A stretch of 64,000 nt of DNA, taken from Siphonodentalium dalli (taxonomy: Eukaryota; Mollusca; Scaphopoda; Gadilida; Siphonodentaliidae). Location of the stretch: the NCBI GenBank assembly GCA_032622095.1, contig CP136068.1, forward strand, positions 152,049,151-152,113,150, read 5' to 3'. A program made the position numbers and the translations under genes. Under the pieces are notes generated by a model. The model was given only the letters and a program-made list of their open reading frames with translations, was not told the origin of the DNA and searched no databases. This document shows positions 34,001-63,663 of the stretch, one piece after another (the stretch's first letter is position 1; every line of letters begins with the position of its first letter).

Positions 34001-34479
34001 ACAATAGCTCAAACTTACAAAGTAAGTTGAGCTAAAAATGCTCATTACAGTGACCATTCAAATCAGATTCCATTGAGATCTGATAACCCTTGACAGATAT
34101 TTTTACAGACACAAAAAAAGCAAGATTTCTCGAACGAAGGAGAATATTAGTAACCCTAGATTGAAAAATGTAAACAAACAGCGATTGACATTTCAATGAA
34201 AGCCCTTGTGGTAGTGAACACACATACCAAATTTTATCATGGCTGAGATCGTCAGGCAGATGTGCAAAAAAAAAAAATTCAACCCATGGCCGAGATAATC
34301 AGACTTGCGTATTTCATTGCAAATATGACGATGGATGGATACATAGGGAACCAGTCTATGTAAACATACACTCAGATTCATACTGATACTATTTTTAGCT
34401 CAATTTTACTTTGTAAAGTTTGAGCTATTGCCATGGCTTTGTCGTCCGTGTGTGCGTGTGTGTAAGGCGTCAACAATCC

Positions 34480-35610
34480 AGGCTACAGGTCGTACCTTTG
34501 ATCGGATCATTATGAAATTTGTCATAGCTGTTGACATCAACATTTGTACCGGAATGATTCATTTTGGGGTCATTCGGGAAAAAAACATGGCCGCCAGCGG
34601 CCATCTTAGATTTCAAAATTCAATCCATTAGCACGGGCTACAGGCCGTACTGTTCGTCTGATCGTCATGAAATCTGTCATGGATGTTAATATTGACATGT
34701 AGATGGGAACGAGTAATTTTGGGGTCATTCGGCCAAAAAACATGGCCGCCAGCAGCCATCTTGGATTTTACTCTTTGCATGACTAAATCCTTTAGCACGG
34801 GCTACAGGTCGTACCTTTGGTCAGATCATCATAAAATTTGTCATGGATGTTAACAATGACATGTAGATGGGAACGAGTCATTTTTGGGTTATTCGGGCAA
34901 ATAAAATGGCCGCCAGCAGCCATCTTGGATTTTACTCTTTGTATGACTAAATCCTTTAGCACGGGCTACAGGTCGTACCTTTAGTCTGATCATCATGAAA
35001 TTTGTCATGGCTGTTGAAATTGGAATGTGGGAACGAGTCATTTTGGGGTCATTCGGATAAAAAACATGGCCGCCAGAGGCCATCTTTGTTTTAAAAATTG
35101 AATCCATTAGCACGGGCCACAGGTCGCATTGTTCGTCTGATCATCATACAATTTGTCAAGGATGTTAACAATGACATGTAGATGGGAACGAGTCATTTTG
35201 GGGTCATTCAGCCAAAACACATGGCCGCCTGTAGCCACCTTGGATTTTACTCTTTGTATGACTAAATCCTTTAGCATAGGCTACAGGTCGTACTTTTAGT
35301 CTGATCATCATAAAATTTGTCATGGATGTTAATATTGACATGTAGATGGGAACGAGTCATTTTGGGGGTCATTCGGCCTAAAAACATGGCCGCCAGCAGC
35401 CGTCTTGGATTTTACTCGTTGTATGACTAAATCCTTTAGCACGGGCTACAGGTCGTACCTTTGGTCTGATCATCATGAAATTTGTAATCGATGTTAACAA
35501 TAACATGTAGATGGGAACGAGTCAATTTGGGGTCATTCGGCCAAAAAACATGGCCGCCAGCAGCCATCTTGGATTTTACTCTGTGTGTGACTAAATTCTT
35601 TACTGCTCAT
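34480..35610 (-). repeat. About 160-bp satellite, right array
   Basis: Seven monomers; the ATGGCCGCCAGCAGCCAT box recurs at about 34587, 34742, 34905, 35066, 35221, 35386 and 35550, a spacing of 155-165. Same monomer as the left array, inverted. Confidence 0.92.
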
Positions 35611-39912: not shown

Positions 39913-40034
39913 TCACCTATAAATCATTGATAGAATGACTGACATCAGTAGGAACAGACTTGTTGGCATCAGTGATATTGCAGATGAACCCACTTTGAAA
40001 GATGGGCAGTTGGGACCTTGACACTCCATGGTTT
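39913..40034 (-). CDS. Ig gene exon 7: C-terminal GPI signal and stop
   Basis: Acceptor TTTTCTTTTTCAG. Encodes residues 344-383: ETMECQGPNCPSFKVGSSAI, then SLMPTSLFLLMSVILSMIYR and TGA. Small residues followed by a hydrophobic stretch at the very end are the pattern of a GPI attachment signal. Frame and phase match exon 6. Confidence 0.9.
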
Positions 40035-43000
40035 CTGAAAAAGAAAATTAATTTTAGATAGTGTTTGCTGAATGCGTTTATTCTCTAATCAATAGATATT
40101 GAGAAATACAAATAGAAGATATATACAAAAGATTGAGAATGTTGCAATTCATGCACATTGCACAATATACACACAAACTTCCCATCATTATTATCATCAC
40201 CCCATGATAATAATCACCGCACAGTCATCGTAACCACACCAATCAGCCGAGTCAAATACAAAAGATGAGAAATCCTTTATTGTGAAGAAATAGTGGCATG
40301 TTTTTAAACAGAAACGGTTCAATATTGACGCAAACGCTGATTAAATAATTCAATCCAATACAAACAAAAAGATCTCAAATTTATCAAAAATTACTTTCAA
40401 CGAAATTTGTTCGGAAATCTTCCACATATGCATGTTTTGAGATATCTCTTTATACCAAAGTATTTTATAGATACTTTGGTAAGAGATATCTCAAAACATA
40501 CATACGCGGAAGATTTCCAAACAAATTTTGCTGAAAATACGTATATTTTTTGATAAATTTGAGATCTATTCGTTTGTATCAGTTCAAATTATTTAATCAG
40601 TGGTTGCATAAAAATTGTAGACCATGGGAAGAACATCTATACAGATGTCTTTGCTCTGAAATGTTGTAAACATATTTATTACATGATCCTACCCTTATTC
40701 CATTCAATAAACCCATTCTATACATTTTGATATTAAACGTTCGTTTAATAACAGGAAATAGTGCCAGGTGACCTTTGACTTCCAGTTTGTCGTCTGTTAA
40801 CATTCTGTATGCTATGTCTCAAAATACTATGGCTTCCAATATTTTTCCACCAAACTATCACGAATGAAGAGTTTGAAATGTTATGTCATTAAATATATGC
40901 TATTAAATGCACCAGAGTATTTATTTATCTGGGTCTATTTCTTTACGCGGGCAAACAACAAATAGTTCGTGAAACGTCATCGTATGCCTTACAGAAGCCG
41001 ATGTTAGTTTCGCGTCCCATTTGTTGATTTAAGTATTTTTTGTCGATGTTTTGGATAAACAAATAAATAAATAGAATCTACAACTCGTCCCCAGTTTATA
41101 GCGGAAATTACAAAACTCGTCCAGTAAATTAGGTCTGGACCTAGATTTACTGGACTCGTTTTGTAAATTCCGCCATAAACTGGGGACTCGTTGTAGATCC
41201 TCTATTTACACATGTTATTGTATTCTACTGGGCATATTGTAGACAATATTTTTATTTTAGATGTCATTCTCCCAGTGTAACATTGTAAAACCATGGTGGA
41301 TGAAGATGCCTCATTTCATGCAAATACATCAATTATACATGTTATTGTAATCCACTTTTTGAGATCATAGCCAGAACTACTACTCTGGTGCTATTTTTAC
41401 ATCTATCAACTGATCTTACTAAGTTTTTTCTGTTGACATTTGATAAGAAATGAATATTTATTTCCGTTAAATTTAAAGAATTTTTTTAGAAATGAATTTT
41501 TTTATTCTGAGAACAATAATTGAATCTTTGCTTCCAACTGTCTATGTTGTTAAAGTGATGTGAAACACTTCGGTAGGGTGATCAAAGAGATATGGAGAAT
41601 AATCTTGCTCAAAGCAGTTATTTTTGACGAATATTAATCCAAATTGACAACACACACCGTCTTTCTTATAAATGAATTAAATGCAATGACTCTAGATGGC
41701 GAAATCATTTGCGTTAGTTTATTGCCGATTGTTGCGTCCGGAATTGAGATGTAAATATTTACAATTGAGCATAGTTCAGACGATGTTTTCTATGGAGTGG
41801 TATGGTCGATTCATTTGAAATTTTCGGTGATCTTAGTAGAATGATACATTCCCCAGGTTGGCACAGCGCATAGTACTAACTTATAAGTTTATCGCACTCG
41901 ACCAAGTCCATAATATGTCTTTAACATGCCTTGATTTATTTGATTTGACACCATGCAGAATAATCAGTATTAAATTCTAAATCGACAAGTGCCATACCTG
42001 CAGTAAAAATGAGTGGACCACAACCATATTAAAACTTTACCTATATTTTAATGTGAGTAATCCTTATACAAAATTAGAAAACTATCAGGTAACTAAAACT
42101 AACATCCGGAAACCAAAATTGTCTGCAAATTCTAAGTCAACGAGGACCATAACTCTTTCAACTGGTATATAATATCGTTTAGATTGTATATAATGTAATC
42201 TGGTAATCCGAAAATTAAGTGGGCCTTTAATGAATATATAACATTCAACAATGAAACATTCTAATAGCATGGATTTATAAGAACCTGCGAATACAGGAAT
42301 CAGTTACGTGTATCAATTTTCGGATATAATTACTTAGATGGATTTACATGAACCTTTGAATACAGGAACAGTAACGTGTATAAACTTTCAGACACAATTA
42401 CGTACATGGATTTATAAGACCATGCGAATACAGGAACAGTTAGTGGTAGAAATTGGCAGGCCTCAACCATATTCAAACTTGATCTGTGCCCATAACCAAT
42501 AAGCTCACATACTAAATATTGTTTAATTTCATTAATTATTACTGAAGATATCATCATGTAAACCATTTGGGATGGATGAATGGATGCACAAACAGAGACA
42601 AAGGTGATTGCTGTAGTCCCTGGAATTTTTTTTCAGGGGATAAAAACCTGAAGTTGCAGACACTATTCATGGTTTTAACTCTTTGAGTGCCAAGTCCAAT
42701 TAGATCAGCCTTAAAAACGGCTGAAAATTGTTTTTTAAATCAATTTATTTTTATTTTTGGGGCATAAATAAGCATGTCATAGACGATATAAAAAGCGCCT
42801 GGATCAATTATTTTGGGCAGTTTAAGACCCAGAATCACCATCAGGAATTTATAGTAACAATTTCTGAAAAGTGAAAAACTGAAAGAGTTAAAAATAGTTT
42901 ATAATGTTTCAGACAATACATGTAAATACTGACCGAAAATGTAGAATGAGGTTTGGTTGCTGCCATATCGGTTGGTTGCCACACACTGATATTCTGTGTA

Positions 43001-46000
43001 ATCATTGGCCTGAACGTTCTTTATTTTCAGCGAGTACCACGATTGGAACGCCTTCAGCATATTACTCGTCTGTTTGTTGATGTCAAACTTGTCATCGTCT
43101 CCAAGTCGTAGCCATGAGTTATCTTTATCTGTCTCCTTTCTCTGCCAGTAAACTGTTGGCTCAGGGTAACCTGTATTAAATACACACATATCATGTTTTA
43201 ACCTTTTATATACTGATCGGGGGGGGGGGGGGGGGGGGGTCGTATGCTGATTTTTTACTTTCGACCCTTGTTGGGACCCACCCACCCCTGTGTCCAAAAT
43301 GTTTTCCGTTTTCGGCAGTTTTTTCCGACCATTATTGGACACCCAGCCCCATTTAACACTAAAACAGAGATTTGCGGGGTGAAATTCACTGTAAACAGCT
43401 GTATATGAATCTATGTGCATACTGTTTGTCATGGATGTTAACATTGACATGTAAATAGGAACGAGTCATTTTGGGGTCATTCGGCCAAAAAATCATGGCT
43501 GCCAGCAGCCATCTTGGATTTCAAAATTTGCAACAACTTACAACACAATAACTGCCTGCAGTTAGTTTAGCAGTTAGAATTACATCATTTCTCTTATTCT
43601 AAGATGTTTTAAGCCAAACTCATTGCAAAAACAGTCAAAAAGACTTGCAGAAAAAAAGAATTTGAGTTGCGGAAAAAATTGTTTGTTTCGACCACCCACC
43701 CACCCCGGCATACGTGCCCAGAAACCCCCCCCCCTGTACTGATGAGTAGTTATCCCGTAGGTCCTTTGTTGAACTTATTATCTAAACATTTCCCTTAATA
43801 AATAGGGCTCCTTCTGCACTTTTATTTATCTGTGATCAGAATGTTCCACAAGGAACATTCCGGGGGGGGGGGGGGGGGGGGGGGGGGAAAGGGATATCTC
43901 TCTTCATAGCCCGGCCTGGGAATAAGGTGCCTTTCATTTGCAGAATGAGGTCCCCAGAGGGTGAATTTAGTCAAATTGGCAGATGTCACATAGCATAATT
44001 GAGGTTATCAATGGGTGTACATCAAAATATGCACCATTTGGGAACAATCTGAGTCTGTCTCCCATTGCAGATGATGCCATGCAGAATTAATGAGAGTGAA
44101 TTTGGTGATGCTAGCCCACTATGCAGGATAGCGTCACTAAATTCACCCTCTAGGAATTTCATACTGCAAATGACAGGCACACTAAACTCAGGCTTGTTCA
44201 AAGCATGTAATGTCAATAAAGGTGCTTTTCTTGCAATTTCAATTGAAATTTTGGTGAACTGAATTACAGTGAATATAAACGTACCCCGCTTCAATAGATA
44301 TTCGGGAATTCAAGCATTAACTCTTTTAATACCAAATACTCATTGACTAGTAGTTCCCTTAGGAAATAATCAAATATTAAGTTCAAAGAAACAACAGTTA
44401 AACTTATTATCTAAACATTTCCCACATTACCGGTAATATATCAAAAATAATATCAAAACTCAGAAAAAAATATTTATAACATATTTATATGGACTTGTTT
44501 TAGACCGGCCCCCAGATGAGGGTAGTGTCACACGAAAGGGTAGAAATTTTGACCCTATCTCCAATTATCCTTGCCCCATGGGGTCCCAAAACACTGAGGT
44601 ATCCAGGGCGGAGCAGGTGGAAAATATATTTTTTTGACCTTTTTGGTGTTTTTGACCTGCAAATTTCAGTATAATCAGGAAAACCAATAAATAAGACAAA
44701 TGTTGAATAAAATATACTTGAATATCAGATATTTATTCTATCTGGGTTGCTTAACATTTATGATATGCAAAAAGTTACATTATCCAACAATTTTGTTGAA
44801 AAATTCACGAAAAATGCCCAAAAAATGCGTAAATTGCAGTGCTTTTTCAAAACAATAACTCCCTTTATACATATTCACCTGATGAAATTGACAGTGACAG
44901 TGAAGATGAGATTACATAATCCGTGGGCAGAACTATTGCAATTTATTATAAGAATTCTATCAACTAGTATGAACGACCTTTCGAGTTTAGTATAGCATAA
45001 AATTGAAAGCATTGAGAACACTATCTTGGGGTAGGGTTAAGTTTTACTTTATTTCTTAACTGTGGTGTGGTACATGATTATAGCATTTCATGTCTGATAT
45101 TGGGGAAGAATTCATGCTTATTGTGGTGCATGATGTGCAGCTGTATCCATAAAACTGACAAAGTCATGGGAATATTTTTTTAAATTTCACTTAAAAATAA
45201 TCAAAATTTTAGCCAATTTACCCCCAAAAAATCAAATGTTTAACAAAATAGACTCTACCATAACATAAACCTCATCAGATACATGCTAATTCCATGATAT
45301 ATGATAAGACTCTGAATTGGTTAACAAAACGGAATGAAAACGGGCTATTCTGACTTGACAGGTATTTTCAGATAGAAAATCAGTTTTAGGGGGGTGGGTT
45401 AAGTTTTTGGAAATATCTCGGCTTGTTGGATATCATTGCTTGTGATGTTGATGTTAATAAATCAGGTATATAATGCTGAAAATTTTGATGCACCAATGAG
45501 AGCTTTGTACCAAAAAATGAAAATTTTATGGGAAATCTTCTGGAAAACTTTTTTGAAAAAGCACTGCAATTTATGCATTTTTGTTGCATTTTCATGAATT
45601 TTTCACAAAAATTGTTGGATAATGTAACTTTTTGCACATCATAAATGTTAAGCAACCCAGATAGAATAAATATCCGATATTCAAGTATATTTTATTTAAC
45701 ATTTGTCTTATTTTATTGGTTTTCCTGATTATACTGAAATTTGCAGGTCAAAAAGGTCAAATAAAAATATTTTCCACCTGCTCCGCCCTGGATACCTCAG
45801 TGTTTTGGGACCCCCATGGGGCAAGGATAATTGGAGATAGCGTCAAAATTTCTACCCTTTCGTGTGACACTACCCTCATCTGGGGGCCGGTCTATTTGGG
45901 CACGTGAAAATGATAAGTTAGTATTCAGGTGCTATTCCAACTGGAGGAATGTAGCGTTCTACTAACATTGCCGAAAATCTTTAGCAAACCGACTACATTG

Positions 46001-49000
46001 AAATATTGTCTGAACATTGCTCAATTTCTCGATTCGGGATGACACTATCGGTGATAAACTAACGAAAACGATTTCTACATCGAGAGTCACTAATTAATAT
46101 ATAAAAATGACGGTATAATATTTTATATAATATTGGTAAAAATAACTAATATGAGCAAGATTATTCTTCATTTCTATTTGTTCACCCTACCATGTTCACC
46201 CTACCTGAGTGTTTCACATCAATAAAAGGAAAATCTATATAAAAAATAATTAATGTAGTTTGAGTGTATTTTATTGAGGATTGTAATACGACCCTGCCTA
46301 ACTATGCTTAAAAGCCATGTCCTGATTGGCCAGTGGCCCGAGTTACCATGGCTATCTCGTTCCAGTTTTGTGGTACAATTCTACTATTTCCAATTGTACC
46401 ACGAAAAAAATCGGTTTATTCAGATCGCCGCACGCGACTTTTCCCGTCTTTTCTAACTCCGCGCAAACGGGGCATTAACGGAGTACACCCGCACCCGTAA
46501 TCCTTTGAATTTTGCTACATCTTGCGAATTTTCTAGCGATTTTGTCGCGTGAAACCAGTTTGGTTGCCAATGAATATGGTCCAAATGATGTTATGGTATA
46601 TTGATATATGTTATGACCAAAGAAAGTTACTTAATAAGTATATTAAATGACAAAATAAATCCATGCGGCCGGGCTGTGCCTTAGTCGATTCGAATCTCGA
46701 TCATATTCGATATTTCGGAATCAAGTTGAAAATGAAAGCGTTTGTTCACCAGTACAGAAGGGGAATAAGATTAGTTTAGTAAACTAGATAATTTAGATCG
46801 CTTTGTGTAAGGAAAATGGTCCATAGTCGATGATCATATTCATGTTGTCCCAACAACGTTCAACACAGAAATGACCGCAATCGTATTTCCTGTACAATTT
46901 AAATGAAAGGCACGGCGCCGCTGAAAACACATCGTTTTTTAGCCAATCACAACGATTATTTACGCAAACAAATTACCAGAGCACTCCATGCAAAGAAATC
47001 AAGTACGCCCAATACGAATTACACCACAAAATGTTTTCTCACCTGAGACCGAAAAAGCGCAGTATTTCGTTGACTATTCAGTCGAATTGTGACCATAAAC
47101 TTTCAGTCGTATTACAAAAGAAATAAATACACGGTGTATCGGTGTGTATGGTCAAGTTGTACCACAAAAAACTGATTGTAGGACGACGCATAGCATCGTC
47201 CTACAATCAGTTTTTTGTGGTACAACTTGACCATGCACACCGATACACCGTGTATTTATTTCTTAAGTGTGGTGCTGTGTCTGTTTAGTGTAAACCATCG
47301 GGAAAAATGTGCCCCGACAGCCAGAGCACCATACCCTTCAATAATCACACACAAACTACATTCATTTCTCAACCCTTCCATGACTGGAGCTTCCTCAAAT
47401 TTTGCGAAAACCATGTGGCAATGCATTCTCTTATACCCTGCTTGACAAAACAAGTGTCCACCTAACCGCGGTGCAGTTAGCGTTGCCACCGTGGCTGAAA
47501 TGCAACCACACCGCGGCTCCACCGGCTAACTACAGTTGGGCCGCGGTGTACTTGCCGTTTGGCCATGGTGTAATTGCCGCGGTGTAGTTGCCTTTCGGCC
47601 GCAGTGTACTTGCTGTTGGGCCACGGTGTACTTGCCGTTCGGCCCGCGGTGATCAACTGCAGTTACAAACTCTGACACCGCGGGCCGAACGGCAAATACA
47701 CCGCGGTGCCAATGGACACTTGTTTTGTCCAGCGGGGTATGTGTGAGTCTCCCACAGGGACCCTAACATATACTAGAGAATACATTGGCCTAACAATATT
47801 TACTTTGACTTTGTAAGCCAGTGCATTCTCTTATATATGCGAGGCTCCCTATGGCACAAGATATTTAATGCTGCACCAGCGCAGCTTCTGTCATGAAAGA
47901 GTTAATTGAAATGTATCTTAGTTACCTGATACAACACATTCTAGCACTGTATCATATTGTCTGTTCTGAGCCTGTCCCACGGTGTCCTGGATGGCAAATG
48001 CTTCTGGTTTGAAGAAAACTCTCAATTCAGCGAAATGTTCAGCGGGAGGTGGTACATTGTTGTCAGCAATGCACCTGTAAACGCCTCGTTGTTCCTTTAC
48101 AACTTTCCCCATTGGCATTATGTTGCCCTGTAAATATACTATAAACTGTCAGAATAACGCAACATCCAAATTTGTCTGGTATTTTCATTGTCTTGCATGG
48201 AGTTCTAGCTTTATGGGTGATGGTAGATCATACATCATGTCTACCTTGGTTACAACTGAGACCCATAGAGATAATATTCCACCAGTATACTGGGGAAGTT
48301 TTTATCTTCTGATGGGGAACATAATAACACAGAAAAAATACTGCAGGTACAGTAATGCCCTAAGTAATTGACTCCTTAACCACAGCAGAATTATGGGTAA
48401 CTTTTCAGGATTTTCTTGGAAATATGGCTTGTTGCCATTCATCGGAAAGCTCTCACAGAAAGCTTTCTGATGAATGGCAACAAGCCATATTTCCGACTAA
48501 ATCCTGAAAAGTTACCCATAATTCTGCTGTGGTTAAGGAGTCGATTACTTAGGGCATTACTGTATTTATATTTCTCAGTTAATTAAAATTCCTATAAACG
48601 GCCATATGTCATTTGTTGAGCTAATATTACCTCAACATTTCCAACCAAATAATAGGAAGTTTTCAGCTCTTACATGCATATTATCTGTTCGTTTGTCTGT
48701 CTTCTGCTTATGTTTCCTAAACATCCCTCTAGATGAATAATAGACCATTCTAATATAAACATTTATAACTGAATAGAAGAATCTATTCAGTGTAGAAAGG
48801 GTTCATAGACATGATGAACATACCCTTTGTTTGGCAGCACCAGTTGGTAGCCAGCCTCCGTCAGCTCTTGCCCATGTCACATTTGGGAAGGGCATTCCAG
48901 TTGCGAAGCATGTCATGTTGTATTCATCACCCTCTCCCAGCTCCACAACACTGGTTGTTCCTGCCTGCTGCACTTCCGGAGCGACTGTAAGATTAAAGTC

Positions 49001-52000: not shown

Positions 52001-55000
52001 CAAAGGGAAACCCGGTCGACAACTATTAACCAAGCGATCACAAAGTGAGATGCAATCGTCTTTAGTTTTCATAAGATGGTAACACCTTATTTAATTCATA
52101 ATCAAACTCACTGATGGGAGTTCATTAATGCTCGCATGTCAGGTGGTGTTGTTACAGAAACTGTGTTTATTTTAGATTGCTTAAATAGTGACTGCGATAC
52201 CAAACGCCAAATCATTTGTAAAATGAGTCTCAAACGAAAACATTCCGAGTGCGACGATGCCGTGACGAAAGGTAAAAAACTGACGGACTTCTTTGGACGC
52301 AAAACAGTTTTGCCTACGTTACCTACGTCTGACTGTGTATTGACTGACATACAAAAAGACGACGTACGACATGCAGATGTAACTGTTGTTGACGATGTGA
52401 CAGACGAACGTGTGATTGATTTACATAGATGGACAGACATTAGTAACCAGACTCCGACGACGCCTTCGAAATGACTAACATACCGACATTACTGACAAAA
52501 CGGACCTTCAAAGACGCGTGGACATTAAACCGACCGTGGTTGATTTATGACAATGTGAAGAAAGCTATGTTTTGTAAGGTGTGCACCGACGCAGGTATAA
52601 GCAATTTGTTTGTAACAGGCTGTTTTAATCTGAAGAAAGATTACGTCACTCTGCATGAAACAGCAAAAGGTAATTATTTTACATTTAATCCTCTAATCCC
52701 ACCCATTGTCTGTCTCGTCACTCACGGGGCTACTGCACAATGCGTATTTATGATGACATTGTATTTATGACGGTCAAGGTTTATGAGCACCAAGTGTAAG
52801 ACAATAGGTTAATCAGCCAAATGTGAATCAGGCGTATATATTTATGGCTATTTGTCGTCAATACCGATATAGTCAAAATAATAAGTATGCTTTTATGAGA
52901 TTGTAACATGATAATGGTGTAACAATATTAAGTTATTAGTTCCCAGATGTCGCTTTGATATTTTTCCAAGGATAAATAGTTAATGTTTAAAACAAAATTA
53001 ATTAATAATATTTTTTAATAAATGATATATATCAAAATACTTCTAGCTCATAAAAATTATTTTAATGATTGTGTGTATATGTGGATATATTTAATTTTCA
53101 GGCATAAATTCTCACAACATTGCCGTACAAATGATCAACGAATCAAAAAACATGAAACCTGTGTCTGTTTACATTTTATATGAATAAAGATAAAAACGCT
53201 AATTTTCCTTATTTTACCCCAATTTGACCTTCGATTTAATTTGGCAAAAAAATATTTCATTTGGCAAAAAATTTGGCAAGAGAAAATTTTGGTCCAGCGC
53301 CAACCCTGATAATGTGATACATTGATGGAAAGAGCTCTAAGAGCTCTTTCCATCAATGTATCACATTATTATAATCAATAAATTTGAAAAATGATCAAGG
53401 AAATATGGGCTGATACAAAAATCGGACTTGGCACTGAAAGGGTTAAAAAGCCTCGACAAACAATTTTTTCCAGTATCTTCTGTTAGAAATATTGGATTTT
53501 ATCAATGAAAATGAATGATTGTTGTTTCTGGAGTATGTTTTCCAGATTTTAAGGAAAAAATAAAAATAAATAGCCTCCCTTCCTCATCTCAAATTAGAGA
53601 TCTAATATTAGTTTATTAGTATAGAAACGGTTAAAGACATATTATGTACTTGTTCTGGTGCATGAACCTGATCAGTTAGTATCCAGGTGCGATGCCAACT
53701 GGAGGAATGTAGCATTCTACTAACATTGCCAAAAATCTGAAGCAAATTGACCGCACCACTCCATAGAAAACATAGTCTGAACTACGCTCAATTGTAAATA
53801 TTACTACTCGAATCGGGACGCATCTATCGGCGATAAACAATGAAAACGATTTCGCCATCGAGAGTCATTGCATTTAATTAATATATAAGAATGAGGGTGT
53901 GTGTTGTCAATTTGGATTAATATTTGTAAAAATAACTACTTTGAACAAAATTATTCTCCATTTATATTTTATCAATCCTACCGGAGTGTTTCACATCACT
54001 TTAATATACAATTACTCACCGAGGACTGTGATAATTCCTTTCTTTCTTGGCCATTTACTCTCTGCTACACTCTGCATTTGTACATAGCATGTGTAAGTCC
54101 CGGCATCTTTATCACCCAGGTTATTGATGATCAGCATGTACGTTTCCCTAGCACCATTCACAACCTTCGTAACATCGTACTTGTACTTGCCAAGTCCCAT
54201 TATAATGTTATTCTGAATCTTTATCTCGGTGTCACTAGTGATGACTATGGCTGACTGTCCAGCAACGTTCTGACTCCATACCACCTGAAGACAATTAGAA
54301 TAAATAAAAGCATATACGTAAAGCCATTAAAATAAATACCTACATGTATGTGTACTCAGACAATTATATCATGGTGGGGAATCACCATGGTTTCCAGGTT
54401 GGTGAGTATCATGCATTTAAAATGGCAGAGGAGAACGCAAAGGCACAAAAACATAATATACTACATGTACATGTAGCTGATGTACTCGACTTCATCAGGG
54501 CTATTTAGGGATTTCTTTGTGATCGCCTCCATCTGGGCAGAATATGCAGCATCTGAGAACGTTGAACAATACTGGGCGAACAACGTTGAAAAGTATTAGG
54601 AGAAAGAAAAAAACTATTGTTCGATAGGTCCAGAAACATGCCCATATGAGCGTGGTCAAGGACAAGGTCGAATGTGAAAATGGAGCCACCCATATTGTTT
54701 CCGGGAACAAAGTAGACTTACATACCAAATTTGAGTCTGATCGGTCGAGCAGTTTTCGAGTCTATAACACACATACATACATACACACAGAAGTTCCAAA
54801 ATATATAATAGACTAGCCGATGAGCCCGACGTTGTCCGGGCTATTCAAAAACCAAATTTCAAGTCGATAGCTCCACCCGTTTCCGAGATCTCGTCTGCGC
54901 ATGCGCGAAGCTTGCGTCGCACGGGCTCGGCGACCCAATAAAATTCGTATCCGGGGCAAGATACATTCACATAGCAAATTTCAAGTCGATATCTCCACCC

Positions 55001-58000
55001 GTTTCCGAGATCTGGTCTGCGCGAAGCTTGAATCGTACGGGCTAAGCGACCCGATAAAATTCGTATCCGGGGCAAGATACATTCACATAGCAAATTTCAA
55101 GTCGATAGATCCACCCATTTCCGAGATCTCGTCTGCGCATGCGCTGCACGGGCGTCGCACAGGCTCGCCAATATGACAACGACGACCGCCTGATCAAACT
55201 ACACACACGTACCAAGTTTCGTCCCGATCGGTCGAGAATCGTAGATTTGTATAAATGACAGACAGAACATGTATGTTCCAAAATACTTAGTTCTATAACA
55301 TTCTGTCCAAAGCTGCCAGACCTACATATACATGTATGGTTGTTTGTTTAACTTATCATCTCAAAATTTTCAAAAGTAACGACTGGTCAATGAGTATATA
55401 CATATACCGGTAGTACAGAAAGGGATAATCAAGAGAATTATTGGGTGATGATAAACATTAGGCAACGATTCTGGGACAAACATTCATTGCACGTTATTCA
55501 TTATAAAAATGAAGCTGTTTTATGTGGGAGCCAAATTCCCATTTAATAGCCAATTACACTAAAGCATAATTCCATTACACTTAATTACACTTAAGTGTAA
55601 TGCCATTACGCTTAAGCATAATGGAATTTGTATTACTCTTAAGCATAATGGCTTCATGCTTAAGCGTAATTCAAATTCCATATCACAAAACTCCCCTGGA
55701 GCTGAAATAGATGCAGCCATGCATGCAAATACTGATGCTAGTAACTTTTGATATTTTATTTTCAACTTTGCTCAAAATAAATATGAATACCCACAGACTG
55801 CTTCTCTTTGTTTTTAATGTACGATAAACTAATAAAACTAAGTACATAATATTAGAATATAAGTGTAATTTATTGTTTTATTGAATAAAACATGAAAATG
55901 GAAAAAAAAAGTTTGATTTGAATGTGAACTAATTGAAGTTTGGTATAATTTCCGGTTTAACAGTACACGCGATGTGTCCATTTTACACGGAAATGAATCA
56001 GTTTACATGGAAAATAAGATATGATGCGTACTAAATTTTGCAAAATCAATAAAATGAAAATGGTTGGGGGCGCCAGAAGCCAGAATAGGGGCGGGCGGGT
56101 CACCAGAAACACAGGTCTTTTTTATTTTGGCTTAAGGAACATGTAGTAAGGCTATGAAAACCTATTACGCTTAAGCTTTAGGGAGTTGTGAGTGAGGCAA
56201 TGGACCTATCTGTAGGTACTGCCCCAATTTCAATTATAGCCAATGAGCCGATAGCTTAAAACCGGAAGCGACATACGCCTGCCTAGTGATATGAATCGCA
56301 CCACAAGCCAGTCCCTAACTACAGTTGTAAGCTATAGAGAATTACGAACACGAGAGCAAAATATGTCTTAAAAAGCTAGCGTATATGTACAATGTTGTTG
56401 ATATGTGCATGGGGAAAATGTCCGGTTGACGAACGATATTTATACATGTTTTAGTTCGGTTTCCTAAATAAAAAAGAAATTGAAAACCAGCGAGAGATCG
56501 ATTGCGCACCTAGGCCAAATACAGAGAGCGAAGTTGGCCGAACCTTATAACGCTATTTTCAGTGTCTACCCAGACGAGATTGGTTAATAATGTGTCCCAT
56601 TTTCCGTTTTATTACCCCGTTACAAGAATGCCTGTATGATGTGTCACGAGATCAAAGGTGCCGTGACCTAGTTACCAATTCCACAACTTTCCATTCACAG
56701 TGCGGTGTCAATCAACCCGCCCGATGTTTGATCACCGACACCAGTAAATTATTTGAGGTCACACGGTGTCGAATGCACTATCTGTCTGGATGATTCGTTT
56801 AAGCTAAACATACATTTGAATGATTTATATGTATGGCTTATGACGTCACATAAATATCTGGAAAATCAAAGCGAGACCACGTGGCCGGGAGATGTTGATA
56901 TTATTCTGTCAGCATGGAATCGGAGTATTAAATTTATTCTTTATTAATAATTATGAATTACAATTAATATAGGAGCATGTACAATATAAAACATAGTGTG
57001 TGACATTCACTTGTGCTTATGGATAGTGGATTAAGCAGTGTTAAACCATCAAAGAGATTCACTGGACATCGATCGTGAGTTACATGTAACTACCAGTAAT
57101 TCAATTTACACAGCATTTATGAATGTGTTTCCGGCAATCCGTTGTTTATTTTATCTTGATAGAAACTGCGCGCCTGGGCCCAAAACCCAGCGAGCGAGAC
57201 TATGCGCGCCTACATTTTCTAAAAATGAAAGTCTGATAATTGTGATAAAGGTTCACAGTGCTGCATTGACGCTGTTGCTCGAACGAACATAAATTATATA
57301 TATTTATGGAATGCATGATGTTATACCAGTATATACATGTATACACTTTAATGGTCAAACTCAAAGTGTAGTGATATACATAATTCGCAAACGATCAGGT
57401 ATACATATCCAATCAAAAGACATTACGAAATGAAGAATGTTATAATGTTTGTGTTACAATTCTTAGAAGCATCTCCCGATCATAAAGGGTTGGGGGGGTT
57501 ATACAGCGCTGAACTTCAAGTGTAGAGTGAAGCTTGAAAGCAGTGTGTGAGCTTGATAAACCAACACAAAGTTAGTAGTGAGAAAAAACTTGCATGAGCT
57601 TATCGTTTTGAATCACAATGAACAGATCGTTCAAGACTACGTAAATCAAAATTTACCCAGTTTGAACAACAATATCCTTTTAAAGATGCATAAACCGATT
57701 AAGCGCCCCCTAAATTACTATTTATTTGGATTCGGGGGTAAAAATATATTTGATTCGAGTCAAGGAACCCACTATCAAAGCTCAGAGTTACTAGACATCT
57801 ATTTTTGAAATCTATTATTTTTCACCATCAAGAATTATTAGTGGCCCAGTAACAGTCGACAAGTAGACGGTCTCGGACCAAATTGGGGATGAAGATGGAT
57901 AACTCTAAATTCAAGAGGCTTTCTGTTGATAATAAGGCAAAATATCATCGAACAACATGTCTATAAATAACTTGTTTCGGGCAATTTTATACTATAGTTG

Positions 58001-61000
58001 ACAATTGTTAGCATTATTTTTGGGAAATTAATCGATTCTGATAACTGAAACAGCATTTCTAAAAATGTTGTTGTTGTTGGAATCTGATTGACTACCTTTA
58101 ACTATTAACTCGCCCTGCAATCTTTACGAAGGTCAATAAATATATTTGCCACAATCTTCTAAACATACCCTATGAGAGCTTTGCTGTTTGTTAATAACTG
58201 TGCAGCTAAGCTTGCCAATCTGACCCTTCCGCTTCACATCTGGCCAAATTTCATCCACAATGTCTGGATCTTGACAGTTCACTGAAAAAAAATACAAGGT
58301 AGATGTTGTAAATATAGTTTATTTAACCCCTTCTTTACTAAATGGACTCTCTCATCAATTGTGGTAAAAAGTACACTTAGGAAAGGTCTATTTTTTATTC
58401 ATCTGGAGGGAAGTTCAGGAAATATAAGCAGATGACAAATAGATGAATAGATCATAAAATTGCAGTTTCGGCACCTCTGATCATGCACTGCACTTTGTCA
58501 TATACTGTATACACCCATCAGTAAGCCCGGGGGGCTTGTACACATTTTTGGTCAAAAAGTGGGTACTGGGCTTACTCACGAGGACCTCCCCATGCAATAA
58601 TTAAGTTAGCCTTCAGGTACTGACCTACCATCATGTTTTTCACTGATGCTTATTAACCAAGCTAATTCTTATAAAAACACAACAGTGAGAAGTGGTGAAC
58701 ACACATCACACTTCTGTATTATCAAAGGATCCTACAAAAACACCAAGTCATTACTCCACATCCCATTGGATTTAATCTGATAGAGGTGTGAACAATAAGT
58801 GACACATCCTTTGATTTTATTGATTTGAAACCTTTTTGACTGATCCAACAACTAAGAATAGAATAGAATAGGATGTGTATAATTCAGAATATTAACAAAG
58901 TGTATCTTTATTATTTAAGAAACTGGTCAAATTCTTCTCCTATTCTACAGGATAGATACATGATTGTATTCACCTTCCAAATGCTCTACGAGGACCACCC
59001 CATGTTTTATTTAGGGTAAAAAACACAGACTGGGCTTATCTTCGAGGATGGGCTTACTGACGGGTGTATACAGTATTCGCTTGGCTCGACATTGGCATGT
59101 CTCTGGCACGTGTTACATGTGTTTGATTTATACAACGAGCCAGCTGGACACGTGCCATAATCATATATTTCGAACAATTTTAGCATTTCTGATACAAAAT
59201 GCCGTCTGCTATAATTCCCTTGGGCAGTTCACGAAAATATGCCACATACATGTATGACAATGCACTATAAACTGGTGTATTTATAACACTTCTACAGTGC
59301 ATGAATCTCGGAAAGCTTTCATTGGTTTCAAAATTGGGATCTTGTCATTCATCTCCCTTGAACCTTCGTATATATCTCTGCAATAAATTTATTCCCACGG
59401 AATATATTTGAACAGGTATTATCATGAGGTCCCCACAAATTTATGAGCTTTGCTTCTGTGGGGGTCCAGTTGTGTGTATCTGTTTACCCATATTTTTGAT
59501 TATCTAATAAACGTTATTGAAATTGAATTTGAAGCATTCCTATTACATGTATAAATATTGATGGGAGATGTTTAGATAATACAGTATGGCCATTTGTTGA
59601 ACTGATTATGTTAAAATTTCCTGAGGGAACTACATGTACATGTACTTGCTGTAGAGTATTTAGTCAAGAAAGGGTTAAATTGTATAACTTGAACTTGCAA
59701 AATCAAATAAATGTACATTTACATCAATTAGTAAATAATACTCATGGGATTTAGCAGTACATGTACTGTACATGTATATACAGGGTTTGACAAATGACTA
59801 GGTATATACTAGATATGTGTATATCACCAAGCGATATCTACTTGGTGATATGTGTATCATCCCCGATGGTAATTTTAATTTCACTTTTCGATAGCCCTTA
59901 TGAGAATTATGAGAATGTCTTATGTTCTTAAACAAACTGTTCATGCATCGCGAATGCGTTAAATTTTATTGAAAATTATCAAATTTAAACACGTAATCTT
60001 AACTGTAAACACTGTTAAATACAAGAATAGAACATATAAAAATATCAGAGGTAGTGACTTTTTTCCAGGCAGGCCTGATGATAAGCAACAATTCGATTTA
60101 GAAAGTCCTCAACATTATAAACAACTGTGATATGGCTGCTCCATAGACCCACAGGGGCCTGTTACTATGGGAGGACACATTTAATAATAAATTGCGCTTA
60201 AGCGCAATTGATCGCAAATAATTGCACAAATACCACATATTGTGCTTAAGCACAAATAGGGCATTTACACTTAAGCGCAATTAGTTGCGCTTAAGTGTAA
60301 CTGTGACTACTATCTAACCTACCCATAAACTATTGGCATGACCTGGTGTATCACCTAGCAACACAAGAGGAGCATTGGGCTAATTTTAACCTGTTTTAAT
60401 TAGCCTGAGTACTCAACAGTCAACTGTGAGTATGTGTTCAACAATGATAATCCCTAAATTGACCCTAATTACATATTATCAGTATCCCTATATCCAAAGA
60501 AGTGATGTCTCCTTCCCGGAACTCTAGTAATTTGTTATACATGTATGATGTTTTTTAATGTATTTTTGCACAGATTTGGGCCACTACTATGGTCATATAC
60601 TTAAGCATGCATGTGGTGTCACTGCATGAGGGCTTGCTTACCTCATATGGTTTACTTATTGACTTAAATCAGGGGAAAACCCTATTTTCATATTATCAGC
60701 AATGTCCCTGTCCAAAAAAATTGGTGTCTCATTCCTGGAGCTTTGGTGTCTCAGTCCTCAAGCTCTAGTTTGTTTTATTAAATCAGCATCTCTTGCACAA
60801 ATCATAGTATTTCTATGGTCATATAGTGTGAATTTGGTGTCACTGAGGGGCAGGCTTGGGGCAATCACTTGTGAATGTAATTAATTACAATTACAATTAC
60901 TTCAACATTTTTCAATTACAATTACAATTCCCATTACATCTATTTCACAATGTAATTAATTACAATTACTTTGAAATGTAATTCAAATTGCCTCCCTCAT

Positions 61001-63093
61001 ATGGTGTGCCTGTATACTTGAACATTTAAGAAAATCAAAGTCGCCCCAACTAATACAGAAAGTAATGCTATTGCGAGTAGCCCCAACTAATATATACCGA
61101 AGATACATCTAATGCTATCACGAGTCGCTCCAACTAAAACAGAAGGTGAAACTATTGCGAATCAGCCATTTTGATAAAGGAGGTGGGTCAATGAAAACAA
61201 GACGTGATATGTCAATAGGAGTTAAGGTTAAGTTATGGATAAACCTATTTATTCACAAGGGGTGTTTAGTTACATATAACCATGAATTGCGCTAAGCGCA
61301 ATTAACTGCTTAAAGGGGTACTGTACGCCAAATGTTGTTGTTGGTTTCTATAGTCTCCGAGTCGGAGAATAAGGTAACAATTTTTTTCATTATTTGAAAG
61401 TCTGTTGAGTATGAAGTAGTGTTACGGATGACAAATTTACCGGAATGCAAAAATACAAATTGTCGTTGTCGAGTAATTTTTGTACAGTTTTCAACCAAAT
61501 GAATCAAATAAAAGTTATATTATAGGCATACTAGTCCCATATAATCATTTAAGTTATTGTATCGTCGCTAGTCAGTGAGTGGCTTGAGTGTTCTCCCCGT
61601 ATCATCATAATATTTTAAGCGATCGTGTGCGCGATCGGTTTAACAATCCAGTATCCCTCAATTACTTTGTTTGATTACGGAAATTCGTAATTTAATTGAC
61701 GCCATTTTATGGCTCCAGTCATAAAATCAATTTAATCAAATTATTAACTTTTAAATTATTAAATTTTAAGATAGCCTATTAACCTGAGTGTTTACAGAAT
61801 ACATCTTCGACTCAACTTACTTATGTTTCTATATATTATCGATATTAGGTCGTTGTTGTCACCGGAAATTTAATGAAAATGGTGTACAGTACCCCTTTAA
61901 GCGCAATTAATTGCGCATATAAAGCGCAATTAATTATTAAATGTGAATTTGGCCTCCCATGTTACCCAATCCGCTGCATGCCCCCCTTTTGCACTGCCCC
62001 TGCATGGCGGTTCTATATATACACCTGCTTCACGTTAACCCTTTACCCAACAAACCGGCCAAAACCGGCCAAATAAAGCTTCAACAGCCTAAAATATCTT
62101 CGGTCTGTCTCATTAGAACCATACAAATATGGATATCGTTGGAACCGGCTCCTTGACCACATTGTGATAGTTACAGTTATGCCCTGTGCCAATGCATTCT
62201 CTTATATATGCGAGTCGACCATAGGTCGCCTCGCATATATGAGAATGCATTGGCCTAAAAAAATTCTTTTTTTAACACTTTTTACCATTTTTTCTTACAT
62301 TCTTTAACAATTTTATAATTTTTTCTTACATTTTTTAACAATTTTTATAATATTTTTATACATTCTTTGACAATTTTATCATTTTTGATAAGTGTTAAGC
62401 CAATGCATTCTCTTATATATGCGAGGCGACCTATGGTCGACTCGCATATATAAGAGAATGCATTGACACAGGGCCCTTCTGTTGGGTAAAGGGTTAATGG
62501 TACTAAATGTGAATAGTGAATCAAGCGTGTACATTGTATATAGACAGGTCAGGGAAAACCCAAACTCGATGTACTAAACATCGATGTACTAAACATCGAT
62601 TTGTGTAAAAAACCTCAATCAGGTGACCACTGGCCAAAATGACTCACCCATGACATACATGTAAGGGATGTAAGGGATATATATCATAAGGGGATACACT
62701 CTAAAACAAAAATGATACTGATGGAAGTAATATAATGTGGAGAATTTCATCTTACACTATGCAGGTGAGTCCATGTAACTGATCACATGATCTCGAAGAA
62801 CCTGGATAGGGGCTTTGTATTTAAATCGAGGTTTAAAACCTCAATTTCAGGATTACCCTTATAGAAGCGGGGTATAGGGGCAGAACAAAAGGGGCGGGCT
62901 CTGTTATTGACCTAACAACCTCGGTTCCTAGCTTTTTTCCTACAAGAGTTGAAATGAACATCTACAAGATTGATACACGCCAGAGTACTTGAAAATTTGT
63001 GCAATGCATTATGAAATTTATTATACACCTGTGTGACTCACCTGTGCTAATAAAACAGATCAAAGCAAAGCATGGTATTAAAAGATACTTCAT
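39913..63093 (-). CDS. Lachesin/IgLON-type GPI-anchored cell adhesion protein (7 exons, 383 aa)
   Basis: Cell-surface adhesion protein of the lachesin/IgLON group, which acts by Ig-Ig contacts at neural and epithelial surfaces (family knowledge). The seven joined exons keep one open frame and each intron is GT-AG. Residues 1-17 form a signal peptide (MKYLLIPCFALICFIST). Ig1, about 24-143, has C44, W58, C121 in DKDAGTYTC. Ig2, about 146-234, has C169, W181, C216 in RGVYRC. Ig3, about 238-343, has C261, W273, C327 in YTEYQC. N-glycosylation sites are N166, N178 and N336. Residues about 360-383 are a small-residue cluster (GSSA) then a hydrophobic tail (LFLLMSVILSMIY), a GPI-anchor signal. Intron phases are 1,0,1,0,1,1, and every Ig domain is cut by an intron. 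Length and order fit lachesin. Sequence alone does not separate lachesin from neurotrimin-like relatives. A divergent gene starts 506 bp upstream. Confidence 0.93.
40328..40608. mobile_element. Foldback MITE in intron 6
   Basis: Arms with CTGATTAAATAATT, GATCTCAAATTTATCAAAAA and GAGATATCTC are inverted around TATTTTATAGATACTTTGG. Overall about 125-bp arms, around 85-90 percent matched by eye. Confidence 0.82.
41069..41209. mobile_element. Foldback MITE in intron 6 (CCCCAGTTTATAGCGGAA)
   Basis: AAATAGAATCTACAACTCGT at the left is inverted as GACTCGTTGTAGATCCTCTA at the right, with CCAGTAAATTAGGTC/GACCTAGATTTACTGG at the centre. Nearly full palindrome. Confidence 0.85.
41590..41830. repeat. 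Dispersed repeat, copy in intron 6
   Basis: GGAGAATAATCTTGCTCAAA, CTCTAGATGGCGAAATCATT and TACAATTGAGCATAG match 29333-29560. Confidence 0.7.
42269..42460. repeat. About 70-bp tandem repeat in intron 6
   Basis: Two full units and a partial, each starting TGGATTTAYAWGA and containing GCGAATACAGGAA and AATTACKTA. Confidence 0.75.
42679..42887. mobile_element. TTAA-flanked CTCTTTGAGTGCC MITE
   Basis: TTAA at 42675-42678 and 42888-42891; ends CTCTTTGAGTGCC and TGAAAGAG. Related to the CCCTTTCAGTGCC group; about 210 bp. Confidence 0.6.
42934..43170 (-). CDS. Ig gene exon 6: main part of Ig3
   Basis: Acceptor TATTTAATACAG; donor GTCAGT is one base off consensus. Encodes residues 265-343: GYPEPTVYWQRKETDKD, SWYSLKIKNVQANDYTEYQC, VATNRYGSNQTSFYIF. 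Reading through the donor would add 11 codons and stop, giving a form without the GPI tail; no evidence that it is used. Confidence 0.95.
43219..43239. repeat. Poly-G run in intron 5
   Basis: 21 G residues on the plus strand close to the exon 6 acceptor. A second run of 26 G lies at 43862-43887. Lengths may be unreliable in sequencing. Confidence 0.95.
43425..43540. repeat. Single satellite monomer in intron 5
   Basis: TTTGTCATGGATGTTAACAT, GGAACGAGTCATTTTGGGGT and CAGCAGCCATCTTGGATTT match the right array at 34480-35610. Confidence 0.85.
43940..44175. repeat. CAGAATGAGG palindromic repeats in intron 5
   Basis: A partial copy at 43941-43975, then GTGAATTTGGTGATGCTAGC and AGCGTCACTAAATTCACCCT forming an inverted repeat at 44090-44175. 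Confidence 0.75.
44501..45894. mobile_element. 1.4-kb element with about 360-bp inverted ends
   Basis: Starts TAGACCGGCCCCCAGATGAG and ends with its complement. The inverted match extends through TCCAGGGCGGAGCAGGTGG, ATTTATTCTATCTGGGTTGC and GTAAATTGCAGTGCTTTTTC to about 44860 and 45535. TA is present at both borders. The central 650 bp has no coding sign. Probably a Tc1/mariner-type non-autonomous element in intron 5. Confidence 0.85.
45905..46180. repeat. Dispersed repeat (AACTGGAGGAATGTAGC family) in intron 5
   Basis: GATAAGTTAGTATTCAGGTG, CCAACTGGAGGAATGTAGCG, CGAGAGTCACTAATTAATAT match 53660-53900. Confidence 0.75.
46181..47117. other. Intron 5 sequence, nothing recognised
   Basis: Contains a small hairpin TTGTGGTACAATT...AATTGTACCAC at 46368-46402 and no coding sign. 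Confidence 0.35.
47118..47264. repeat. 147-bp near-perfect palindrome
   Basis: AAGAAATAAATACACGGTGT is mirrored at the right end and the centre is GGACGACGCATAGCATCGTCC. Arms about 70 bp with only one or two mismatches. Confidence 0.92.
47373..47901. mobile_element. AATGCATTCTC palindrome MITE carrying an insertion
   Basis: Starts CCCTTCCATGACTGG, ends GTCATGAAAGAG before TTAA. The TA-flanked element 47436-47737 sits inside ATTCTCTTATA. Confidence 0.7.
47436..47737. mobile_element. 302-bp TA-flanked MITE with CCGCGGTG repeats
   Basis: Ends CCCTGCTTGACAAAACAAGT and its near complement, flanked by TA. The interior is a set of about 21-bp units GGCCGCGGTGTACTTGCCGT, with the last ones inverted. 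GC-rich against its surroundings. Confidence 0.85.
47926..48127 (-). CDS. Ig gene exon 5: second half of Ig2 and start of Ig3
   Basis: Acceptor TATATTTACAG, donor GTAACT. Encodes residues 198-264: GNIMPMGKVVKEQRGVYRC, VPPPAEHFAELRVFFKPEA and YDTVLECVVS. The Ig2/Ig3 border falls inside the exon. Phase 1 end. Confidence 0.96.
48350..48562. mobile_element. 213-bp TA-flanked foldback MITE, full copy
   Basis: CAGTAATGCCCTAAGTAATT at the left is mirrored at the right; arms of about 103 bp with a short CACAG loop. TA on both sides. Lies in intron 4. Fragments at 2202-2337 and 49994-50023. Confidence 0.92.
48824..48984 (-). CDS. Ig gene exon 4: first half of Ig2
   Basis: Acceptor ATCTTACAG, donor GTATGT. 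Encodes residues 144-197: VAPEVQQAGTTSVVELGEGD, YNMTCFATGMPFPNVTW and GAAKQR. Two N-glycosylation sites flank the Cys and Trp. Phase 0 end. Confidence 0.96.
49230..49770. repeat. Dispersed repeat in intron 3
   Basis: Both ends match 15090-15200 and 16500-16790, which are separated there by a hAT insertion. Confidence 0.6.
50460..50786. mobile_element. Partial TTAA-type MITE in intron 3
   Basis: Ends at 50786 with GGATTATGCATCT before TTAA and shares GAAATAGTAATTTACGAGCG, AGCCAAGGAAATAG and GGTGAAAAATAATTGATTTT with the AGGTACTCAA family, in inverted orientation to 57680-58100. Confidence 0.6.
50831..51685. mobile_element. 855-bp hAT-like element with GAATCGAATC arrays
   Basis: Ends TAGGGACCGACGAA and TTCGCCGGTCCCTA, flanked by GTTTTCAG on both sides (50823-50830, 51686-51693), an 8-bp hAT duplication. 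Subterminal arrays of TCGAATCGAATC occupy both ends. No transposase motif in the centre. Confidence 0.9.
51810..53308 (+). mobile_element. 1.5-kb hAT element nested in a MITE
   Basis: Ends CAGGGTTCGCGCTG and CAGCGCCAACCCTG are inverted with one mismatch. ATAATGTG is duplicated on both sides (51802-51809, 53309-53316). Repeated TTTGGCAAAAA words at both subterminal regions are likely transposase binding sites (inference). Encodes only the N-terminal part of a transposase. Confidence 0.92.
52136..52770 (+). pseudogene. N-terminal fragment of hAT transposase (TTF/ZNF862-like finger)
   Basis: Two frames overlap by four bases. The first has MSLKRKHSECDDAVTKGKKL then TDFFGRKTVLP, the basic start seen in many hAT proteins. 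The second has FKDAWTLNRPWLIYDNVKKA, MFCKVCTDAGISNLFVTGC and LKKDYVTLHETAKGN, which matches the TTF-type finger of ZNF862-like hAT transposases (W-L-x-Y, C-x2-C, the G-C-x-N region and a His). The RNase H core and dimerisation region are absent; the element ends 540 bp later. The frame change, or an unrecognised intron, separates the two. A broken, non-autonomous copy. Confidence 0.82.
53630..53970. repeat. Dispersed repeat next to exon 3
   Basis: CTGATCAGTTAGTATCCAGG, AACTGGAGGAATGTAGCATT, CATCGAGAGTCATTGC match 45905-46180 and, in part, the complement of 29333-29560 and 41590-41830. It ends about 50 bp before the donor of exon 3. Confidence 0.75.
54020..54284 (-). CDS. Ig gene exon 3: second half of Ig1
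   Basis: Acceptor TTGTCTTCAG, donor GTGAGT. Encodes residues 56-143 from VVWSQNVAGQ through LIINNLGDKDAGTYTC to ITVL; ends in phase 1. Confidence 0.96.
54850..55215. repeat. About 120-bp tandem repeat in intron 2
   Basis: Three units with CAAATTTCAAGTCGATA at about 54853, 54975 and 55091, then CCACCCGTTTCCGAGATCT, TCTGCGCATGCGC and AATTCGTATCCGGGGCAAG. The region before it (54500-54845) and after it (to 55290) share CGATCGGTCGAG-type words and look like the body of the same element. Confidence 0.85.
55555..55685. repeat. TTAAGCGTAAT palindromic cluster
   Basis: Six or so words of ACACTTAAGTGTAAT and TACGCTTAAGCATAATGG type. Related words at 56166-56180, 60187-60300 and around 61287-61945. 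Confidence 0.75.
55686..57678. other. Intron 2 sequence, nothing recognised
   Basis: Frames of 60-84 codons at 56590-57292 have no motif, no acceptor/donor pair and no match to the Ig gene's domains. Confidence 0.35.
57679..58099. mobile_element. TTAA-type MITE close to exon 2
   Basis: Starts AGATGCATAAACC after TTAA and ends near ATCTGATTGACTACCT before TTAA. Shares CTAAATTACTATTTATTTGG, TTTGATTCGAGTCAAGGAAC and CAAAGCTCAGAGTTA with 12901-13379 and 17690-18169 but with altered ends. Ends 70 bp from the exon 2 donor. Confidence 0.7.
58169..58281 (-). CDS. Ig gene exon 2: first half of Ig1
   Basis: Acceptor TTTTTTTTCAG, donor GTATGT. Encodes residues 18-55 (VNCQDPDIVDEIWPDVKRKG onward), including C44 in KLSCTV. 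Ends in phase 0 at SSHR. Confidence 0.93.
58502..59076. mobile_element. 575-bp MITE with ATACTGTATACACCC ends in intron 1
   Basis: ATACTGTATACACCCATCAG followed by TAAGCCC at the left is inverted at 59050-59076 with one mismatch. Both ends continue with GGGCTTAC and GAGGACC/CGAGGA words. TA-type target likely. The centre has no coding sign. Confidence 0.82.
59077..60184. other. Intron 1 sequence with one hairpin
   Basis: At 59816-59857 ATGTGTATATCACCAAG is inverted as CTTGGTGATATGTGTAT in imperfect form. Otherwise nothing recognised. Confidence 0.35.
60185..60300. repeat. TTGCGCTTAAGCGCAA palindromic cluster
   Basis: ATTGCGCTTAAGCGCAATTG, TTGTGCTTAAGCACAA and GCGCAATTAGTTGCGC in close succession. 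Same family as 55555-55685 and 61285-61945. Confidence 0.8.
60478..60990. repeat. Diverged 210-bp duplication and ATTAC-rich tract
   Basis: GTGATGTCTCCTTCCCGGA and TTGGTGTCTCATTCCTGGA, each followed by ATGGTCATATA and GTGGTGTCACTG/TTGGTGTCACTG, mark two diverged copies. 60875-60985 is rich in ATTACAATTACAATTAC on both strands. Confidence 0.6.
61314..61896. mobile_element. 583-bp TTAA-flanked MITE with AGGGGTACTGTAC ends
   Basis: AGGGGTACTGTACGCC at the left and its near complement GGTGTACAGTACCCCT at the right, flanked by TTAA (61310-61313, 61897-61900). The flanks are two halves of one AATTAACTGCTTAAGCGCAA palindromic tract. The interior is AT-rich with two short frames, one (61310-61507) without motif. 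Confidence 0.88.
62039..62493. mobile_element. TTAA-flanked CCCTTTACCCAACA MITE, copy 3
   Basis: Same ends, arm sequence (ACCGGCCAAAACCGGCC) and two AATGCATTCTC palindromes as 29955-30346, with an expanded TTTTTTACATTCTTTAACAA spacer repeat between the palindromes. Lies in intron 1. Confidence 0.9.
62573..62603. repeat. 15-bp tandem repeat ATGTACTAAACATCG
   Basis: Two and a fraction copies, ATGTACTAAACATCG repeated directly. Confidence 0.85.
63042..63093 (-). CDS. Ig gene exon 1: start codon and signal peptide
   Basis: ATG at 63093-63091, 17 codons plus one base, ending ACAG at a GTGAGT donor (63041-63036). Hydrophobic core LLIPCFALICFI. Phase 1 matches the TGAACTG start of exon 2. No earlier in-frame ATG is needed. 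Confidence 0.88.
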
Positions 63094-63599: not shown

Positions 63600-63663
63600 A
63601 TGATTCTGCACGATTGGACATTCGCGACACTATTAGTGTGTTTCATATACACTCTTCGAACAG
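63600..63663 (+). CDS. First coding exon of a divergent gene: signal peptide
   Basis: ATG at 63600 opens MILHDWTFATLLVCFIYTLR followed by T and one split base. A polar start, a hydrophobic core ATLLVCFIY and a short end make a signal peptide. It runs into a consensus donor GTGAGT at 63664, in phase 1, exactly like exon 1 of the Ig gene on the other strand. The remaining exons lie beyond the window. A second secreted or membrane Ig-type protein is the natural guess, since Ig genes often follow a phase-1 signal exon, but any secreted protein with such an exon is possible. Confidence 0.62.

Follow-up and report, generated by a model that had tools for sequence, protein, structure and literature searches.

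A seven-exon lachesin-like gene and its head-to-head neighbour in the genome of Siphonodentalium dalli

Introduction

A 64,000-nucleotide stretch of the Siphonodentalium dalli genome (2.23 Gb in nine contigs), here called the window (C8:152049151-152113150), raises the question of whether raw sequence suffices for a correct reading of a multi-exon animal gene that begins with a 52-bp exon. A sequence-only reading of this stretch had proposed a complete gene resembling lachesin, an insect protein with a layout of three immunoglobulin (Ig) domains and a GPI anchor. The label ‘lachesin-like’, as applied to the window gene, is presumptive, drawn from this layout.

According to PMC10863630, most Drosophila Dprs and DIPs (Dpr-interacting proteins), and also the mammalian IgLONs, are GPI anchored; the same paper reports that no consensus motif for GPI attachment is known, that two predictors agree only in part, and that Dpr-DIP cell aggregation stops once the anchor is cut. 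The two C. elegans IgLON orthologues form a trans-synaptic complex, as described in PMC12881522.

Here we argue that the seven exons in the window very likely form a single genuine protein-coding gene, whose product is an Ig-superfamily protein of the lachesin/DIP/IgLON kind anchored at the cell surface; secretion, GPI anchoring and Ig1-mediated adhesion are its probable steps. It is a further member of an already known kind, an ordinary animal gene, and its recovery suggests that genes with so short a first exon can indeed be read from raw sequence. New here are the gene that stands head to head with it and the numerical backing for exons 1 and 7.

Results and Discussion

Structure of the gene

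The gene lies on the minus strand, spanning positions 39913-63093 of the window (Table 1), and its seven exons join into a coding sequence of 1152 nt that ends in TGA and encodes 383 residues. The joined reading frame contains no internal stop, all six introns are of the GT-AG type, the splice phases after exons 1 to 6 are 1, 0, 1, 0, 1 and 1, and the ATG of exon 1 is preceded by an in-frame stop upstream. The span, exon number, protein length and terminal exons of 52 and 122 bp claimed in the sequence-only reading were reproduced to the base, and the unbroken frame that it described held across six of six GT-AG joins; the span had been given without strand or exon coordinates, both of which are fixed here.

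Splice sites were scored with matrices built from the window gene and its head-to-head neighbour, the exon 7 acceptor being left out. The acceptors of exons 2-6 reach 11.8-13.4 bits and the six donors 9.0-12.2 bits; the exon 7 acceptor, at 8.5 bits, is the lowest among the 13 acceptors scored.

Table 1. Exons of the window gene, first exon of the neighbouring gene, and the interval between their start codons (positions in the window).
Feature	Position	Strand	Description
Exon 1	63042..63093	-	52 bp; ATG and signal peptide MKYLLIPCFALICFIST; phase-1 end at CAG|GTGAGT
Exon 2	58169..58281	-	113 bp; N-terminal half of Ig1 (Cys44); phase 1 to 0
Exon 3	54020..54284	-	265 bp; C-terminal half of Ig1 (Trp58, Cys121); phase 0 to 1
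Exon 4	48824..48984	-	161 bp; N-terminal half of Ig2 (Cys169, Trp181); phase 1 to 0
Exon 5	47926..48127	-	202 bp; C-terminal half of Ig2 (Cys216), then the beginning of Ig3 (Cys261); phase 0 to 1
Exon 6	42934..43170	-	237 bp; remainder of Ig3 (Trp273, Cys327); phase 1 to 1
Exon 7	39913..40034	-	122 bp including stop; run of small residues, then a hydrophobic tail at the C-terminus (probable GPI-attachment signal)
Neighbour exon 1	63600..63663	+	signal peptide MILHDWTFATLLVCFIYTLRT; phase-1 end at CAG|GTGAGT, as in exon 1 of the window gene
Gap between start codons	63094..63599	.	506 bp; putative common promoter plus the 5' UTRs of both genes

Searching the window with the proteins of both genes (E up to 1) yielded no Ig-like exons beyond those already known: the seven matches of the window protein are its own seven exons, and of the five matches of the neighbour protein, one is its own first exon and the others are exons 3, 4 and 6 (the last twice) of the window gene. 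A tRNA scan and an Rfam scan at gathering thresholds returned nothing in the whole window. The 23-kb gene span is rich in repeats; downstream of exon 7, positions 32391-35602 hold tandem arrays with units of 155-343 bp, and the printed unit of one of them (34481-35602) appears by eye to be the reverse complement of the units of the others.

Domains and ends of the protein

Against Pfam, the whole protein scores 88.4 bits with Ig_3 and 82.7 bits with I-set. Taken alone, Ig1 just passes the cut-off of ‘ig’ (25.4 versus 21.8 bits) and falls narrowly below those of V-set (24.9 versus 26 bits) and I-set (22.8 versus 23.7 bits), and Ig2 alone scores 36.3 bits with Ig_3 (cut-off 30 bits) and also passes the I-set and ig cut-offs. 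A Cys-Trp-Cys set is present in each of the three domains (Cys44/Trp58/Cys121, Cys169/Trp181/Cys216 and Cys261/Trp273/Cys327), and the motif ahead of the second Cys of Ig3 is degenerate (NDYTEYQC). These matches and landmarks bear out the three Ig domains that had been claimed. The introns of the gene cut through its Ig domains; in a whole-genome I-set search (805 candidates, 150 scored), its exons are absent among the 150 matches listed.

At the N-terminus, hydropathy, the phase-1 donor and the shuffle test described below agree on a hydrophobic leader that fits a signal peptide, as the sequence-only reading had it. The C-terminus consists, by hydropathy, of a small-residue stretch followed by a hydrophobic tail, which on that evidence is probably a GPI-attachment signal.

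A protein of this layout would most likely enter the secretory pathway by way of its signal peptide, which would be cleaved, and its C-terminal tail would be exchanged for a GPI anchor. The membrane-distal Ig1 would then bind an Ig protein on an adjacent cell as its partner, so that cells adhere selectively. By analogy, the anchoring and adhesion described for Dprs, DIPs and IgLONs may carry over to the window gene; we likewise infer a possible neural role, and a possible co-regulation with the gene next to it.

A related gene in the opposite direction

A second lachesin-like gene, absent from the earlier finding, starts 506 bp away and runs in the opposite direction, at positions 63600-83151 (+) of the window-extended C8 sequence. 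It comprises eight exons, seven of them beyond the end of the window. Its first exon is the sole candidate in 63094-65421, and an equal one arose in 0 of 1000 shuffles. The encoded protein of 374 residues has three Ig stretches (Pfam) and a hydrophobic end; of 348 residues aligned with the window protein, 109 (31%) are identical.

The two genes are alike in having a signal exon, an Ig1 and an Ig2 split in equal phases, and a last exon with a hydrophobic tail, which in the neighbour is entered in phase 1 and is of the same kind as exon 7. Their first four intron phases (1, 0, 1, 0) are common, and exon 4, of equal length and phases in both, is 38% identical over 52 residues. Unlike the window gene, the neighbour has an added intron between Ig2 and Ig3, and its Ig3 intron lies elsewhere, in phase 2.

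The locus contains two divergently arranged lachesin-like genes with a start region in common, which opens their co-regulation to direct test. The gap between the start codons has a CpG observed/expected ratio of 1.33, a value equalled or exceeded in 29 of 254 500-bp windows and so not distinctive; that it serves as a shared promoter of the pair is therefore a suggestion from the arrangement of the genes. More elaborate is the idea of an ancient duplicated receptor pair driven by one 506-bp bidirectional promoter, such that partner Ig adhesion proteins would be made together as a built-in heterophilic (cis/trans) pair; we regard this as a doubtful proposition. Our literature search found no paper joining ‘bidirectional promoter’ with ‘lachesin’.

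Placement within the Ig superfamily

The search of solved structures with the window protein returned 117 distinct sequences at E up to 0.001, of which the best 60 were considered and three alignments printed. Among these 60, the best single collinear stretch is with Drosophila DIP-theta (residues 71-340, 84.3 bits). MDGA1 stands first by summed score, with a best single stretch of 50.4 bits, and the best single stretch of DSCAM reaches 38.7 bits; the remaining 57 of the best 60 have whole-sequence scores of at most 80.5 bits. The Ig domains of DIP-theta, DIP-alpha and DIP-eta (structures 6efz, 6efy and 6eg0) are collinear with the window protein, DIP-alpha and DIP-eta scoring 80.5 and 76.5 bits over the whole sequence. 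The mammalian IgLONs (neurotrimin, NEGR1, OPCML and IgLON5), compared here by sequence, show the same Ig order and score below the three DIPs, at 65.7 bits (neurotrimin) and lower. The neighbour protein likewise matches DIP-theta in one stretch (97.7 bits); by summed score, DIP-theta ranks there behind DSCAM, MDGA1 and titin. A lachesin entry is absent among the structure matches listed for either protein, and ‘lachesin-like’ was not found among the listed literature matches for that term combined with mollusc terms.

These scores bear on whether the gene belongs instead to another three-Ig branch, for example a lineage-specific family, that merely resembles lachesin. Such a reading concerns the family name and not the gene model, and overlaps with the one we prefer. 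In its favour, the top summed score belongs to MDGA1, which is neither an IgLON nor a DIP; against it, the best single collinear alignment (best 60 of 117) is to DIP-theta.

The reciprocal comparison adds to the case for a separate branch, the match back from DIP-theta being weak. When the DIP-theta segment was compared with the genome (150 of 174 candidates scored), the Ig2 exon of the window gene came 47th (E 0.0096) and the neighbour 40th among the 49 matches listed, in a scoring that proceeds exon by exon and so places genes with intron-split domains at a disadvantage. Other loci score higher, and the window gene is not the genome's best DIP match; the segment finds three matching exons at each of two loci, C3:266.6 Mb and C5:78.7 Mb. 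DIP-theta is a distant match to the window protein, with other loci of the genome nearer to it. Given their place so far down the list, neither the window gene nor its neighbour appears to be the DIP-theta counterpart, and the pair looks divergent within its kind. The low reciprocal rank counts against a DIP-theta orthologue, not against family kinship.

Intron positions agree in part. In the DIP-like gene on C3, three exons of which were read, Ig1 is cut by a phase-0 intron just before V-V-W and followed by a phase-1 intron at its end, and both positions are common to the window gene. The Ig2 and Ig3 intron positions are unlike in the two genes as far as those three exons go: in the C3 gene, Ig2 seems to be split by a phase-1 intron, for which no following exon was found, and Ig3 is encoded by a single unbroken exon. 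Taking the shared Ig1 introns together with the collinear alignment, we consider a separate, merely similar branch rather unlikely. Membership in the lachesin/DIP/IgLON kind remains the preferred reading, and the earlier interpretation is supported at the level of ‘-like’ by the leader, three Ig domains and hydrophobic tail, by collinear DIP and IgLON matches, and by Ig1 introns placed as in the C3 gene.

The terminal exons

Exons 1 and 7 had been read from phase and motif logic, and both were put to a search with explicit filters. For a first exon these were an ATG, an open frame, a phase-1 donor and a hydrophobic 9-residue core; exon 1 is the sole candidate on the minus strand between 63599 and 58282. 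A first exon as good (donor of at least 12.1 bits, hydropathy of at least 2.88) arose in 1 of 1000 first-order Markov shuffles, and an equal candidate in 0 of 1000 when both exon-1 donors were omitted from the matrix. For a last exon the filters were an acceptor, phase 1, a short open frame and a hydrophobic end, and exon 7 is the sole candidate in the 10.9 kb from 42933 to 32001. At cut-offs of 8.4 bits and 2.1, looser than the exon's own values of 13.2 and 2.28 on a further matrix that likewise omitted its acceptor, a last exon appeared in 15 of 1000 shuffles, which covered 42933-39913. Each terminal exon is thus the one candidate that passes its cut-offs, and is rare in shuffled sequence, in line with the original proposal.

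Both tests build in the assumption of a signal peptide and of a hydrophobic tail, and their reach is limited to terminal exons of that kind. It is in this respect that the gene model has a rival, in which the internal exons are right and other terminal exons are used, for example a transmembrane last exon or a read-through from exon 6 into intron 6; the product would then be an isoform that is transmembrane or secreted. Reading on beyond the donor of exon 6 adds a short open extension that ends in SETL before a stop, and intron 6 is about 2.9 kb long. Yet exon 7 is the sole last exon to pass in the 10.9 kb searched, under filters that required a hydrophobic tail, and the neighbour gene also closes with a phase-1 hydrophobic-tail exon. 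We therefore hold alternative ends to be improbable, and the seven-exon model with its probable GPI-type tail to be the better account.

Copies elsewhere in the genome

A partial copy of exons 2 and 3 lies at C7:146456126-146465939 (+), with open frames, the same boundaries and splice phases, and 66-71% identity (70-71% for exon 3). Between this copy and window exons 2-3, dN/dS is 0.57 over 122 codons (one-sided Fisher p 0.035, from rounded counts), a ratio that indicates only weak constraint. Within 50 kb around the copy, exons 1 and 4-7 gave no convincing match (best E 0.25, with the top four listed per exon), and no first-exon candidate was found in the roughly 10 kb upstream of its exon 2. 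Among the matches listed in whole-genome searches, exons 4-6 have no close counterpart outside the window.

That the locus is a decaying paralogue without expression is highly improbable. In its favour, no close copy of exons 4-7 was found elsewhere among the best candidates scored in two genome searches, and the C7 locus, the sole close relative, is partial; against it, each of the seven exons keeps an open frame and every splice site is preserved across 23 kb with many repeats.

In the C7 copy, the 3' end of exon 2 and its 5' splice site have expanded into a 61-bp tandem array of about 94 copies (C7:146456238-146462001), which takes up the beginning of intron 2. Counting the real donor, this array contains GTATGT 81 times, so that most copies keep a donor-like decoy. 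All 49 matches listed in a genome search lie at the C7 locus.

Ig exons elsewhere in the genome also occur as pairs of equal score on opposite strands, 0.33-0.75 Mb apart (C6:48748812/49080900, C6:228320381/228765487 and C4:264496181/265241026), an arrangement that suggests either large inverted duplications or an assembly artefact.
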